Positions 8,392-15,912 of a DNA stretch of 40,099 nt are shown in pieces. Source of the stretch: a virus; IMG/VR virus record IMGVR_UViG_3300031227_000142, positions 1 through 40,099 of that record; one strand, written 5' to 3'. Made by a program: the position numbers and the translations under genes. Position 1 is the first letter of the stretch; the number at the start of each line of letters is the position of its first letter. Below the pieces are notes generated by a model. That model saw only the letters and a program-made list of their open reading frames with translations. It searched no databases and was not told the DNA's origin.

Positions 8392-8393
8392 AA

Positions 8394-8467
8394 GCAGGGG
8401 GCAAGGATTTTAACCTTGCACTCTAGTGATTTTTAGTCACCTGTGTTTAACCTTCCACCACCCCTGC
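8394..8467 (-). tRNA. tRNA-like gene, isotype uncertain (apparent anticodon AAA)
   Basis: Read on the minus strand, a cloverleaf folds. The acceptor stem is GCAGGGG/CCCCTGC (8461-8467 with 8394-8400). A 3-bp D stem GTG/CAC has a Gly-Gly loop and a conserved T8 and A14. A 5-bp anticodon stem GGTGA/TCACT has loop CTAAAAA, and the T arm is GCAAGG/CCTTGC. The geometry gives anticodon AAA (8432-8434). Oddities: no encoded CCA, T-loop TTAAAAT instead of TTCRANY, a 6-bp T stem, and a Leu-like D arm without a long variable arm. It could be a decayed or remodelled tRNA. A 7-bp hairpin follows at 8374-8391. Confidence 0.5.
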
Positions 8468-10929: not shown

Positions 10930-11874
10930 TTATTTACCTATATTCATTAGTAAGTCTGAGTCGCCTGAGATTACCGTTGGCAAAACACCGTTCCACTTCT
11001 CGTAGAACTTGTTCTGTAGCACTTGGTCAGAGAGAGTTTCTCTTAGAAGTCTTTGAGTTTCAGCTTCGGCTTCTGCTTGAGTGATTTTTCTCTCCTTCTC
11101 AAACTTAGCTGACTCAGCTTTGTTCTTCTCAGTTTCAACCCTAACAGCTTCGATTTGTTTATCTTCAATAGCGTTCACATATTCTTCTGAGAAACTAATT
11201 TCTCTTATGCCGACACTATCAAGAATAATTCCATTCTCTGCAAAAGTTGGTAAGATTTTATCAAATACTTGTTGCTGAAAATCTTGGACTCTGCCTGTAT
11301 ATAGATCGTCTGCTGTATATTCTCTAGCGATAGTTCTTACCCAAACTCTACTTTCGGTTTTGATAATCTTATCTACTAAGGAATCTTCAGATCCTAAGTT
11401 TTGAGTAATATCATCAGCCATAGTTGGATCTACTGAGAACCTTATGGTGTAGAAAATCTTTACTTGCTGACCGTCACTAGTATTAGTATCTACTGGATAA
11501 TCTTTATAATCTGCCTCTGTATTATCTTGAGATTGTTCTGTTGAAGTTTCGTAAGTTACTTTTTTAGTAGAATATTCAGTTGTTCCATCCATAAATGGAG
11601 CTTTCAAGTGAAATCCTGGTTCTAAAATTCTGCCAGTTACTCTGCCAAACCTAGTAACAACTTTAACTTCACCGGCTTTAACAGTGGTAAATGAAGACAT
11701 TAAAGTAGTAAATATAAATAAATAAACTAATCCTGTTAATAGTGTCTTTCCTATTTTTAATTCATAGTCACCATATTTATCCTTTTTATAAAAAAAAGTA
11801 TCTTCGGTTTTAGGCTTTTTTGATTGAAGCCTAGCGTTCTGCATTTTTTGTTCATCTTGATATGACATCGACAT
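10930..11874 (-). CDS. SPFH / band-7 (prohibitin-stomatin-like) membrane protein
   Basis: A 314-residue protein. A cytoplasmic N-terminus precedes one TM segment (TLLTGLVYLFIFTTLMSS, about 44-61). The band-7 domain follows (AGEVKVVTRFGRVTGRILEP, then GFHLKAPF), with IREISFSEEYVNAIEDKQ and a long Ala/Glu-rich coiled coil (about 232-275; KKN/AEAEAET segments). SPFH proteins form large cage-like oligomers on membranes. In phages the role is unsettled: superinfection exclusion, membrane protection or lysis timing are options. Length and domain order are normal. Its neighbours are small membrane or coiled-coil proteins, suggesting one assembly. Confidence 0.88.
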   Translation of the reverse strand: MSMSYQDEQKMQNARLQSKKPKTEDTFFYKKDKYGDYELKIGKTLLTGLVYLFIFTTLMSSFTTVKAGEVKVVTRFGRVTGRILEPGFHLKAPFMDGTTEYSTKKVTYETSTEQSQDNTEADYKDYPVDTNTSDGQQVKIFYTIRFSVDPTMADDITQNLGSEDSLVDKIIKTESRVWVRTIAREYTADDLYTGRVQDFQQQVFDKILPTFAENGIILDSVGIREISFSEEYVNAIEDKQIEAVRVETEKNKAESAKFEKERKITQAEAEAETQRLLRETLSDQVLQNKFYEKWNGVLPTVISGDSDLLMNIGK

Positions 11875-12512: not shown

Positions 12513-13106
12513 TTATTGTACTTTCTTGAGGATTTCCTCAATTTGTTTAATACCTGCTTCGAGTCCTGCTTTGATCTTAGCAATTTTTTCTTCATCTCTC
12601 TCTACTCTAAAAACTTCGATTTTATCTAAACTATCATTAAAGACTACGAAGTCTACCCATTTGCGATCAGCCACCAACATTTGATGTTGCATCTGCCACA
12701 TATATTTAGTTTCAGGTTTTTTAGTTATTAAAAAGCGGATAAAGTTGGCATCAGTAGGACACTTGATTTCAACCATCCCATGCTCCCCGACTAACCCATC
12801 GGGGCTAACACCAACTCTATCGCTTTCTTCAATGTACCCTACTTGAGTTACGACATTCCCGGACTTGATTTCGTAAGCAGATCGAGCGGTATTTTCCAAC
12901 TCGTTGCCACGCTCCATGTCTGGATTTACATAATTAGTTTTGGGTCTACCTGTAATGATCTCACCGACTTTTTCATAGCATTTGGTTTCTAAACCTTTAC
13001 CTGCTGTAGCTACTGCCTGAGCATCTGTTCCGCCAAACTTTCCTATTCTGGTTGCTAACCATTTTTCAGATCCTTGAGGCAATTCTTCGTTTGTATAGAT
13101 TTTCAT
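12513..13106 (-). CDS. YqaJ-type phage recombination exonuclease
   Basis: A 197-residue member of the YqaJ/lambda-exonuclease PD-(D/E)XK family, which resects double-stranded ends. It shows the N-terminal substrate motif (GSEKWLATRIGKFGGTDA), a helix Glu (GNELENTARSAYE, about 70), the active Asp in GVSPDGLVG (about 102) and VEIKCP (Glu-X-Lys, about 112-114). A further helical motif YMWQMQHQMLV is typical. It lies immediately downstream of the ERF annealing gene, the usual exonuclease/annealase pair for homologous recombination and concatemer or end repair. Confidence 0.93.
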   Translation of the reverse strand: MKIYTNEELPQGSEKWLATRIGKFGGTDAQAVATAGKGLETKCYEKVGEIITGRPKTNYVNPDMERGNELENTARSAYEIKSGNVVTQVGYIEESDRVGVSPDGLVGEHGMVEIKCPTDANFIRFLITKKPETKYMWQMQHQMLVADRKWVDFVVFNDSLDKIEVFRVERDEEKIAKIKAGLEAGIKQIEEILKKVQ

Positions 13107-13697
13107 TTAAGCCTCACTTTCGTTTTGAGCGAACTTAATTTTTACTTCATCATATATAGGAGTAATTAAACTCTGTTTATATTTCTTAGTAAGAGTGTTA
13201 CAAACTGCCGAGAGTTCTTTTTGATTCTTACAAGCCCTGATAGTTTCTTCATCTTTAGCTTCAACAGCATCTTTCATATCGATGGCGAGTTTATCTACCG
13301 CATCAGACTCAACAATTTCGAAAGCACTCATTAACATATATCTACGCATATAGGTGATTTTAGCTCCCAATTCTTTAATTGGAGTTCCCTTTGGAAGTGT
13401 TGCTGTTGCTGTAGGACAAGTGAAGATAATCATATTAGTTAATTCGTTATCAACTTCTATATCTACAACTCTAAGGACTGCTGTTTCAACTAAATGAATA
13501 ATTCCTTCATCTAAAGAATTGTTTTTAGCTTCAATAGTAAACTGAGTCATAAACCCATGCTTCTTTGCCAGGGCATTTATAGCCGGAAGAAAGTCACCGA
13601 GTTCATAATATTTGATTGATTGATTACTACCAGATTTCTTGAGTTTCATCTCTTGGAGATCTACTCTAGCTTCTGTTACTTTTTGGTAAATTGTCAT
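13107..13697 (-). CDS. ERF-family single-strand annealing protein
   Basis: A 196-residue ERF recombinase. The typical start (MTIYQKVTEARVDLQEMKLK) is followed by YYELGDFLPAINALAKKHGF, then a beta-rich region, and GTPIKELGAKITYMRRYMLM, the conserved ERF signature before an acidic C-terminus. It anneals complementary strands after exonuclease resection and lies directly upstream of YqaJ (stop and start nearly touching). P22 Erf-type proteins circularise phage DNA with terminal repeats, which fits a circularly permuted genome. Well supported. Confidence 0.9.
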   Translation of the reverse strand: MTIYQKVTEARVDLQEMKLKKSGSNQSIKYYELGDFLPAINALAKKHGFMTQFTIEAKNNSLDEGIIHLVETAVLRVVDIEVDNELTNMIIFTCPTATATLPKGTPIKELGAKITYMRRYMLMSAFEIVESDAVDKLAIDMKDAVEAKDEETIRACKNQKELSAVCNTLTKKYKQSLITPIYDEVKIKFAQNESEA

Positions 13698-13960
13698 TAT
13701 TCTATCTCCTGATTATCGTCTTCTAAACCAGTTGGTTCATCATTGAAGGCGTTGATACCGTAATTATAATTCTTAGCAAACTCTATAGCGTGAATGAGCT
13801 TATCTGCTTGTTCAAGAGTTTCTCCAAAAATAATCTGTTGATCTTCATCAAAAACGGTGATATCTGAAATAGATCCATCATCTTTGAAGTCGATATCGAC
13901 CATATAATTATCGACAACGAGCGATGCCGATCTGAGGGGGGTTGGGTTAGTTTGTTTCAT
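13697..13960 (-). CDS. hypothetical acidic protein, leaderless start
   Basis: An 87-residue protein with a predicted beta N-terminal half (SASLVVDNYMVDIDFKDDGS, then ISDITVFDEDQQIIFG) and an acidic tail (DEPTGLEDDNQEIE). It could be an early DNA-mimic or a small regulatory protein; no family is recognised. The ATG A coincides with the predicted transcript start of a strong promoter. It precedes ERF with a one-base stop-start overlap (TAATG), so it heads the recombination operon. Confidence 0.65.
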   Translation of the reverse strand: MKQTNPTPLRSASLVVDNYMVDIDFKDDGSISDITVFDEDQQIIFGETLEQADKLIHAIEFAKNYNYGINAFNDEPTGLEDDNQEIE

Positions 13961-13966
13961 ACTGTA

Positions 13967-13996
13967 AGTATACTACCGCTTGTATGATTGTGTCAA
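13967..13996 (-). promoter_or_regulatory. leaderless early promoter of the recombination operon
   Basis: -35 TTGACA (13991-13996), 18 bp, -10 TATACT (13967-13972) on the minus strand. The computed start is 13960, the A of ATG. The spacer ends in CAAGCGGTAG, the full early element. Confidence 0.8.
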
Positions 13997-14003
13997 TAGA
14001 TCT

Positions 14004-14186
14004 TTATAGATCAGTTTCGTTTTTGTCTGGATTTTGGTCGGTTTTACTCTCTTTTTCGGCTTTCTCTGCTCTTACCTTAGCCCATCTCTTATTAACCATA
14101 TCTCTAAAATGATTTCTACCGTATTTCTTTAAGGTTTTCTTACCGCCCATTGATCCTAGTTGTTTTGCTATGTCAGATTTGTTCAT
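14004..14186 (-). CDS. small basic protein, Gly-Gly-Lys-Lys type, leaderless
   Basis: A 60-residue protein (MNKSDIAKQLGSMGGKKTLK and a Lys/Glu-rich tail ending DQNPDKNETDL). The GGKKTLKKYGRNHF segment resembles small Gly-Gly-Lys proteins that recur in metagenomic bacterial and phage genomes with unknown function. The start is the ATG at 14184-14186, since the -10 box (14193-14198) puts the transcript start on it; a TTG at 14201 overlaps the promoter and is rejected. It is the first gene after the RNA-rich gap. Confidence 0.65.
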   Translation of the reverse strand: MNKSDIAKQLGSMGGKKTLKKYGRNHFRDMVNKRWAKVRAEKAEKESKTDQNPDKNETDL

Positions 14187-14192
14187 TATTTC

Positions 14193-14223
14193 ATTATACA
14201 ACCGCTTGGGTACTTCAAGTCAA
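14193..14223 (-). promoter_or_regulatory. leaderless early promoter with 19-bp spacer
   Basis: -35 TTGACT (14218-14223), 19 bp, consensus -10 TATAAT (14193-14198) on the minus strand. The start is 14186, the A of ATG. The spacer carries CAAGCGGTTG next to the -10 box and TGAAGTA next to the -35, so it combines marks of both promoter classes. Confidence 0.78.
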
Positions 14224-14564
14224 TAGTAATTAGTTAAATATAGTAACGAAGTTTATTCCTGAGATTAGATCGTTCGAAGAAAAAGTTTGTTGCCCCCTAC
14301 CCCCTACTTGAGGTAATATCATGATAAACGATTGCTTCAGTCCTTTTCAGGAGAGCGACTCCCACCTACCGTTTGAAGGGTCTTTGTCGCTATTAACAGC
14401 TCTATTCCGGCGATTGAGTCGTCCTTGAATGAGTCGGGAAGTAACTATTAGAGTCGTTCTTCCACTTATGTTGCCCACGACTTTAGCTTATTAGCTAAGT
14501 ACTCGATCCAATTAGTCGTTTGCCTGCCCGACAACAATCCAATCAGATCGAATACTCAACCAAT
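14202..14564. other. gene-free region with iteron-like AGTCG repeats and G-rich track
   Basis: No credible gene. GAGTCG/AGTCGT occurs at 14416, 14431, 14451 and 14514, with inverse copies (CGACT) at 14356 and 14477 and more at 14571-14585 in the terminator. There is a hairpin TTAGCT/AGCTAA (14483-14498), a 10-base palindrome TATCATGATA (14317-14326) and, on the minus strand, GTAGGGGGTAGGGGGC (14292-14307). Together these suggest an origin of replication or a protein-binding array; the function is inferred only from repeat structure. Confidence 0.4.
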
Positions 14565-14589
14565 AAAAAAACGACCTCTCAGTCGCTTT
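14565..14589 (-). terminator. rho-independent terminator
   Basis: On the minus strand the arm AAAGCGAC pairs with GTCGTTTT (core 4 bp CGAC/GTCG plus a G-T and A-T pairs), with loop TGAGAG, followed by a run of T (14565-14571). It ends the third unit of the intergenic RNA region. Confidence 0.55.
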
Positions 14590-14622
14590 GTTCAATAGTG
14601 CTTGTAATCTTACTTGTAACAT

Positions 14623-14640
14623 AAAAAAACTACTTGGTAG
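14623..14640 (-). terminator. terminator of the pseudoknot RNA
   Basis: Minus strand CTAC, loop CAA, GTAG, then seven T (14623-14629). The upstream CTAC arm (14637-14640) is also the end of stem 2 of the RNA, so the two folds exclude each other. Confidence 0.6.
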
Positions 14641-14701
14641 AGATGTCGGCATTGGTCGAGCTTTCCAACACCTCTACGAAATAGTTTAATTGCTCGACCA
14701 T
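14623..14701 (-). ncRNA. predicted small RNA with H-type pseudoknot topology (about 78 nt)
   Basis: On the minus strand, stem 1 pairs UGGUCGAGC (14692-14700) with GCUCGACCA (14653-14661), 9 bp. Stem 2 pairs GUAGAGGUGU (14668-14677) with ACAUCUCUAC (14637-14646), 10 bp including one G-U. The arms are interleaved (a-b-a'-b'), i.e. a pseudoknot or two exclusive states. The G-U becomes an A-C mismatch on the other strand, supporting minus-strand function. A promoter with TATAAA at 14707-14712 places the start at 14700, the first base of stem 1. The terminator hairpin CUAC-CAA-GUAG plus seven U ends it and competes with stem 2. No known RNA family is recognised. Confidence 0.65.
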
Positions 14702-14706
14702 CTATA

Positions 14707-14735
14707 TTTATAAACTCTTTTAGAATTAGTTGCAA
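14707..14735 (-). promoter_or_regulatory. promoter of the pseudoknot RNA
   Basis: -35 TTGCAA (14730-14735), 17 bp, -10 TATAAA (14707-14712) on the minus strand. The predicted start is 14700. It shares ATACTTGCA with the neighbouring promoter 75 bases away, and its spacing and -35 differ from the mRNA promoters. Confidence 0.6.
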
Positions 14736-14813: not shown

Positions 14814-15023
14814 TTATTTTTTAGCGTGCCTAATGTAGCCTTCTTCGGCTAACTCTTTTTGAATGATGACAGCTAGTAAATTTAACACCGGAGCTAACCC
14901 AACAAGTTTCGGGTCATCGGTTATATAAACTAATCCTAGTGAAATTCCCCACGAACCTAATAGGAAGGCAATTACTTTAAGATGCTTCCATGTTACTTCG
15001 CTGATTTGTTCTGGTTTTATCAT
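14814..15023 (-). CDS. putative holin (two TM segments)
   Basis: A 69-residue protein, MIKPEQISEVTWKHLKVIAF, with two hydrophobic segments (IAFLLGSWGISLGLVYI, about 18-34; LVGLAPVLNLLAVIIQ, about 40-55) and a charged tail (KELAEEGYIRHAKK). Small size, two TM helices and a place right after the amidase fit a class II holin that opens the membrane at lysis. The start is the ATG at 15021-15023 with AAAGGGA upstream; a longer TTG start at 15131 is rejected. A terminator and the small-RNA region follow. Confidence 0.7.
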   Translation of the reverse strand: MIKPEQISEVTWKHLKVIAFLLGSWGISLGLVYITDDPKLVGLAPVLNLLAVIIQKELAEEGYIRHAKK

Positions 15024-15034
15024 TTTTCCCTTTC

Positions 15035-15053
15035 TATAGGCACTTTGCCTATA
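15035..15053 (-). promoter_or_regulatory. hairpin directly before the holin ribosome site
   Basis: TATAGGCA (15035-15042) and TGCCTATA (15046-15053) form a perfect 8-bp stem with a 3-base loop. It ends a few bases before the holin Shine-Dalgarno (AAAGGGA) and could modulate holin translation or mRNA stability. Confidence 0.5.
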
Positions 15054-15079
15054 AAAACTGTTATTTGTAGTTAGCAGTT
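15052..15079 (-). terminator. weak terminator between amidase and holin
   Basis: Minus strand AACTGCTA and TAACAGTT pair (8 bp, one mismatch), followed by TTTTTAT. It would attenuate holin transcription from the amidase side. The rest of 15080-15153 holds no gene. Confidence 0.4.
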
Positions 15080-15153
15080 GCTTGTATCTTCTGCTATGTT
15101 GAGCCTGTTTCGTTATTAGCTCGTATATCAACCGTTTTTTACGATGTTTTCGG

Positions 15154-15912
15154 CTATTTTTCGAACAGCTTCTTAATACACTCTACCATTTTCTTAAAAG
15201 TACAGCAATCTACCTCAATTATAGGCTCAATTTCTGGACATTCAGGACATTCTTGATTTTCGAGTTCGGTTCTTAGATTCTGGTTTTCTTCGGATAATCT
15301 ACCATTAACAATTAAGGTACTATCTAGCTGTTTTTGAACAATAATTAGTTGCTGTTTATACAGTTCACATGGATCTTCTATTTCCGGCATAAGAGCTTTT
15401 AATATTCCACTAGTTATTCCTTCAACGACTTTATCCTGACTATGCCAAAGAGTTCTCCAATCTTCTTCAACTCTCCAACCTACGCCGGCTTCAATAATTA
15501 CGCATGGAGTATTTGCAGACATCTTAGACCACATATAATAGAACTTGGTGTTCTTGTTAGATCGATTCATTTTTTCAGGGATGCCAGTAATAGAAAAATA
15601 AGTCTTCCTCATTTCGTCAGCGATTCTATTTGATTCTTTAGTTGCAAAGTCTGTAGAAGGATCTGGGGTGTCAATGAAAGCACCTCTATCGTTATAAATA
15701 TCAGCATCATAGTGAACGGATAAAAAGAGATCCCAATCACCGGCAATATCTTGAGCGGTTGGATCTGCATTACATTCTCCAACTTCAATACCATGTTCTC
15801 TGAGTTTAGAGGCAATTTTAGGAACTATTTCACTAGTCCATTTTTGTTCACCTGGAGCACCAGTAGCACCAGAAGTACGACCCTTGTGACCTGCTTGAAT
15901 TAAAATTCTCAT
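15154..15912 (-). CDS. N-acetylmuramoyl-L-alanine amidase endolysin (Amidase_3)
   Basis: A 252-residue lysin. The N-terminal zinc amidase (about 1-180) has the first His in IQAGHKGR (H9), a Glu ligand nearby (E22 or E28), the second His in FLSVHYDAD (H67) and the catalytic Glu in VIIEAGVG (about 141). It cleaves the bond between MurNAc and the peptide. The C-terminus is a coiled coil (QLIIVQKQLDSTLIVNGRLS) and a Cys-rich end (ECPECPEI; DCCTFKKMVEC), not a standard wall-binding domain. AGGAA precedes the ATG. Confidence 0.9.
   Translation of the reverse strand: MRILIQAGHKGRTSGATGAPGEQKWTSEIVPKIASKLREHGIEVGECNADPTAQDIAGDWDLFLSVHYDADIYNDRGAFIDTPDPSTDFATKESNRIADEMRKTYFSITGIPEKMNRSNKNTKFYYMWSKMSANTPCVIIEAGVGWRVEEDWRTLWHSQDKVVEGITSGILKALMPEIEDPCELYKQQLIIVQKQLDSTLIVNGRLSEENQNLRTELENQECPECPEIEPIIEVDCCTFKKMVECIKKLFEK

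Follow-up and report, generated by a model that had tools for sequence, protein, structure and literature searches.

Between its endolysin and recombination genes, the genome of an uncultured phage carries a short minus-strand element with a putative promoter, two interleaved stems and a U-tract, which raises the question whether this locus encodes a small RNA of its own or the beginning of a message. The window analyzed here is the whole virus record of 40,099 bases (37% G+C), and nearly all of its long genes are located on the minus strand. Upstream of the element (14623-14735) are the endolysin gene and a small ORF following it (14814-15912), and downstream lies the recombination block (12513-13697) with an Erf-like annealing protein and a RecE-like exonuclease. 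A preliminary description had presented the locus primarily as a self-standing small RNA with its own promoter and terminator.

Promoter, stems and terminator in the window

The features of the element are collected in Table 1. The predicted transcript starts at the first base of B, as had been proposed before; a stricter promoter scan, which required T at the last position, missed the hexamer pair TTGCAA/TATAAA. Stem B:B′ was confirmed by direct reading as nine perfect pairs (14700-14692 with 14661-14653), and in 4000 shuffles of the sequence such a helix was never reached. It ties the RNA 5′ end to the terminator loop and thereby crosses C:C′, so that the two stems are indeed interleaved. 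The ten pairs described earlier for the second stem (14677-14668 with 14646-14637) are present, but this length was too short, since the inner stem of C:C′ extends to 13 bp (14677-14665, GUAGAGGUGUUGG, with 14649-14637, CCGACAUCUCUAC). Likewise, pairing specific to the minus strand was borne out, with two G-U pairs (G14671-U14643 and U14667-G14647, C/A mismatches on the plus strand) instead of the single one named before. An outer extension crosses one mismatch (ACUAUUU/AAGUAGU), giving a terminator hairpin of about 20 pairs in total. The lowest-energy fold of 14701-14623 is this hairpin alone, which extends as far as the U-tract (−26.8 kcal/mol, z −4.8; equal stability in 0 of 200 shuffles), and it replaces the 4-bp CUAC-CAA-GUAG hairpin previously taken for the terminator. 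Immediately 3′ of the U-tract stands an ATG (14622-14620), which had gone unmentioned.

Table 1. Features of the element on the minus strand of the window
Feature	Position	Strand	Basis and remarks
−35-like hexamer TTGCAA	14730-14735	−	direct read; 17-nt spacer to −10
−10-like hexamer TATAAA	14707-14712	−	9/12 consensus matches; predicted start ~14701-14700
B, putative antiterminator 5′ arm, UGGUCGAGC	14692-14700	−	shuffle test; equivalent stem in 8 relatives
C, terminator hairpin 5′ arm	14665-14685	−	inner 13 bp (14677-14665) plus outer extension
B′, GCUCGACCA, within terminator loop, partner of B	14653-14661	−	direct read; shuffle test
C′, terminator hairpin 3′ arm	14629-14649	−	SD-like AAGUAG at its end
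U7 tract, terminator tail and spacer to start codon	14623-14629	−	direct read
36-codon ORF, ATG right after U7	14512-14622	−	coding status doubtful; no Pfam family

Related elements in uncultured phages

Relatives were sought in IMG/VR via exonuclease and SPFH-like protein searches. A topology scan, which asked for a terminator hairpin preceding a U-run and for complementarity between part of its loop and upstream RNA, picked L017, L018, L020 and L028, which have the same arrangement in very different letters. L029 was added by inspecting U-run/ATG sites, L030 and L035 were found by a DNA pattern consisting of the 3′ strand of a further hairpin, P1, and U7AUG, and L075 by a pattern built from P1 alone. 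The resulting family has nine members, all from uncultured phages. Six of them (window, L017, L018, L020, L028, and L029) are located in contigs that were not fetched for U7AUG, L029 nevertheless having been noticed through this motif. Of the 45 matches to the P1-3′-strand and U7AUG pattern, 40 were dismissed as chance matches, as were L076 and L077 from the search with P1 alone. L023 had a high score in an early scan, but it has no AUG and a differing layout. L016, the closest relative by its exonuclease, has a similar B-C-B′-C′ series at ~2700-2800 and was left out for want of a U-tract. Further searches with the Erf-like protein and the endolysin gave one relative each and that with a 725-aa protein none, while a portal-region protein yielded close relatives whose contigs stop short of the element's locus. 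Among annotated phages no DNA similar to the window region was found, and the concatenated elements gave only chance-level matches against phages.

All nine members share one order of parts: a sigma70-type promoter, B, C, a loop with B′ near its end, C′, a U-tract, and AUG. The tract is U7 in eight members and U6-A in L075, and in most of them C′ ends in an AAGNRG-like sequence, these SD-like ends being weak. In seven members, here called extended, hairpin P1 lies between the promoter and B, and its loop segment A pairs with a segment A′ in the terminator loop; all seven have a TTGACA or TTGATA promoter upstream. The window and L028 represent a short form without P1, in which B occupies the first transcript bases. 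The letters of the helices differ wholly between members, with only P1 and an AUAA conserved in a subset, while the pairing between A and A′ is kept (GGCAAG/CUUGCC, GGUAAG/CUUACC, GGAAAG/CUUUCC, GGUAAAG/CUUUACC, GGCCAAG/CUUGGCC, ACCAAGC/GCUUGGU). What connects the short form of the window with the long form is the architecture, the promoter and the U7-AUG, not the sequence, and convergence is possible. MAFFT alignments of the extended members place B and B′ incorrectly.

Two alternative folds and their statistics

For an RNA ending after B′, the best computed fold contains B:B′ in all nine members. With the full-length RNA, the terminator C:C′ is the best fold in eight, and L020 stays antiterminated. 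Both folds are separately significant in every member (z −3.5 to −7.0 and −4.3 to −7.6, respectively). In the relatives, C is meanwhile engaged in local hairpins, chiefly with A′, the neighboring segment of the loop (p 0.002 to 0.25). B and C are separated by 1-14 nt, and the terminator arms measure 12-29 nt. Because these linkers are so short relative to the arms, B:B′ and C:C′ should not be able to coexist in full, as judged from inferred geometry; the folding programs themselves leave pseudoknots unscored. The earlier expectation of alternative states in place of one rigid pseudoknot agrees with computed folds that flip between B:B′ and C:C′. The estimated barrier on the path from the first to the second fold is 14-26 kcal/mol, and the early fold may therefore outlast the passage of the polymerase over the U-tract; the modeling suggests that B:B′ would persist during this step.

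In each member, less than 1.2% of the shuffles gave a contiguous B:B′ helix. Three members had been recruited without reference to B:B′, and their p values were 0.010, 0.0005, and 0.0005 (combined by Fisher's method ~1e-6). The P1-loop helix taken member by member is modest (p 0.0008 to 0.14). When partners were swapped between members, all three helices were destroyed and the own partners were better, a matrix that illustrates the point as the segments were picked for complementarity, so that the weight is carried by the contiguous-helix shuffle test. The latter was used instead of a gapped duplex test of leader versus loop, which was too insensitive. In a uniform scan of 1971 U-runs in 1.55 million strand-bases, with overlapping fetches of one contig counted once, eight distinct loci scored at or below −30, all of them family members followed by AUG or AAUG. 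The window element was the second-best of all matches; L029 scored −27, and non-members reached up to −29.3. Conservation of both stems with compensatory changes in relatives, the check suggested in the preliminary description, thus came out positive.

Proposed mechanism and alternative explanations

Since the U-tract runs straight into an AUG in all nine members (once as U6-A-AUG), the element most likely serves as the 5′ leader of a message, with the 80-nt terminated RNA as its OFF product. An intrinsic terminator lies between promoter and start codon, and in the computed folds an earlier-forming alternative excludes it. The reading that we favor and regard as probable is that of a two-state transcription attenuator at the 5′ end of a phage transcript; a two-state switch over termination, already considered in the preliminary description, is supported by the folds computed for nine members. 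RNA polymerase would start at ~14700, and B would pair with B′ once the latter emerges, thereby enclosing C. In the ON state, C would be unavailable while C′ and the U-tract are made, so that the polymerase continues, leaving the ribosome site in C′ free and the AUG after U7 usable. In the OFF state, with B:B′ prevented or undone, C:C′ would form and the polymerase would stop at U7 just before the AUG; in read-through transcripts the same hairpin would cover the ribosome site, so that the leader probably also hides this site in C′. We infer that the element is transcribed and that termination is controlled in this way. As the early fold would persist past the U-tract, read-through would be the default, and termination would follow if B:B′ failed or were kept from forming. 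For the extended relatives, the likely handle for such control is the P1 loop through its pairing with A′, and P1 is absent from the short form of the window. More speculative, and in our view rather improbable, is the idea that the switch family (A B C A′ B′ C′ U7 AUG, with free letters) acts as a signal-free kinetic timer, born ON and later turning OFF to give a short pulse of the leading gene, whose 80-nt terminated RNA might pair via B/B′ with incoming leaders of the same type and thus confer superinfection immunity without a repressor.

A stand-alone small RNA of ~80 nt, trans-acting or serving as a decoy, with a pseudoknotted 3′ terminator hairpin and an incidental AUG after U7, would agree with the presence of an own promoter and terminator, and in the window and L020 the ORFs after U7 have merely 36-37 codons and are followed by structured RNA. 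We nevertheless consider it unlikely, as the AUG occupies the same place in 9/9 members and opens ORFs as long as 153 aa, including two homologous ones; furthermore, the sequence and its targets would both need to change freely, and no perfect 9-nt copy of B was found elsewhere in the window. Both stems might also be present at once in a constitutive pseudoknot, e.g. for nuclease protection of the 5′ end or for ribosome stalling. B′ and C′ use different bases, so base competition alone would be no bar, and the 14-nt linker could span the inner 13 bp in the window; in most members, however, a complete C:C′ would probably be out of reach with linkers of 1-14 nt, and the alternative local partners of C in the relatives would be needless in a constitutive knot, which makes this explanation very unlikely.

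Least probable of all appears to us a reading of P1 in the extended relatives not as an RNA hairpin but as a palindromic DNA operator within the spacer of a second promoter, with the conserved TATAA as its −10 and B at or before the start. Sequences overlapping P1 do resemble promoters in L075 (TTGGCA-18-TATAAT, 11/12) and L017 (TTGTAA-18-TATAAT, 10/12), but an operator leaves the complementarity between the P1 and terminator loops and between B and B′, maintained through change, unexplained. Moreover, the TTGACA or TTGATA promoter is located further upstream in 7/7 extended members, and the window has no P1 while its G-U pairs point to RNA. Two further classes were rejected. For a leader-peptide attenuator no conserved short ORF exists: there is a 23-codon frame in the window (14701 to the U-tract) and a 6-codon frame in L020, and by inspection none in the others. 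A metabolite riboswitch would have a strongly conserved unpaired aptamer core, which was not seen; the helix letters differ completely, and the window and L028 are without P1.

Relation to known systems

In accordance with the preliminary description, which recognized no Rfam-type motif, the Rfam 15 covariance models gave no credible match over the element in the window, L002, L017, L018, L028, L029, L030, L035, and L075, with only miRNA models appearing below cut-offs. The nearest known logic is that of the repC attenuator of the staphylococcal plasmid pT181, in which an antiterminator sequesters the 5′ half of an intrinsic terminator in the ON state and transcription stops before the gene in the OFF state, the ribosome site lies within the terminator 3′ half, and an antisense RNA kisses a sensing hairpin for control (PMC5435934, PMC4878617). 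Here, by contrast, it is pairing with the terminator loop that creates the stem around the 5′ arm, no gap separates the U-tract from the AUG, and there is no sequence or Rfam relation. A promoter scan of the opposite strand gave none in the window element and weak candidates in some relatives. HK022 putRNA is also a short structured phage leader and favors read-through in early transcription, but its two stem-loops bind RNA polymerase and act processively on later terminators, the RNA itself being no part of a terminator (PMC9378689). In the P4 CI/seqA system and its relative IsrK, short complementary segments likewise decide on premature termination before replication genes, there with a processed antisense RNA acting in trans (PMC4825925), whereas all partners reside here in one leader. 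No trans partner was found.

The open-access literature yielded no description of the element, such absence being weak evidence, and we regard it as an attenuator variant and the family as one of apparently undescribed phage gene switches. If this is right, these phages control a leading gene by RNA alone, via a terminator blocked through a stem with its own loop, and the letters may vary freely provided that complementarity stays, which would make a new attenuator class and a source of mutually independent control parts. The switch would then also mark variable downstream phage genes of unknown function. A structure-first search can find RNA families that are missing from sequence-based models.

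Downstream genes and surrounding sequence

The ORFs opened by the AUG have 36 to 153 aa, and no Pfam family was found in them. The 93-aa product in L017 and the 87-aa product in L029 are homologous proteins (32%, E 4e-9), so that both AUGs can be taken as real starts. In L018, the AUG opens a Cys-rich ORF of 153 aa, and same-strand genes leading to the exonuclease come after it. The ORFs of the window and L020 (36-37 aa) are doubtful, and a second terminator-like hairpin is located inside that of the window. As different phages have different ORFs at this position, the switch precedes different genes.

Several further observations were made in these contigs. Right after a second terminator, a noncoding stretch of 360 nt is present in the window (14200-14566, minus strand) and in L002 (2581-2945, plus strand). 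Both stretches contain long stems, of 28 bp in the window (z −2.9 and −2.4, respectively). They have the letters UUGGUUGAGU...ACU(U/C)AGCUAAUAA in common and may represent a large structured phage RNA that Rfam does not include. A 37-nt direct repeat (73%) at 13946-13982 and 14172-14208 of the window carries two minus-strand −10 regions; the promoters (TTGACT/TTGACA with TATAAT/TATACT) stand ahead of ORFs 14201 and 13960 and share CAAGCGGT(A/T)G, and the repeats are likely paired early promoters with a common operator. The recombination block includes an SPFH/prohibitin-like membrane protein (phrog_200; 10930-11874, minus strand), which is 54-65% identical in several uncultured phages. A tRNA-Phe gene is predicted at 8393-8467 (minus strand) of the window, with the anticodon AAA, unusual for phenylalanine. 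Beside the leader element of L029, positions 2094-2177 gave a sub-threshold match to the tmRNA model (39.8 bits, E 2e-12), and ARAGORN reported no tRNA or tmRNA there. In L016 (2700-2810), which has no U-tract, the promoter TTGCAA-17-TAGATT and a B-C-B′-C′ series immediately precede an ORF of 232 aa whose ribosome site is normal, an arrangement that is possibly a translation-only version of the switch.
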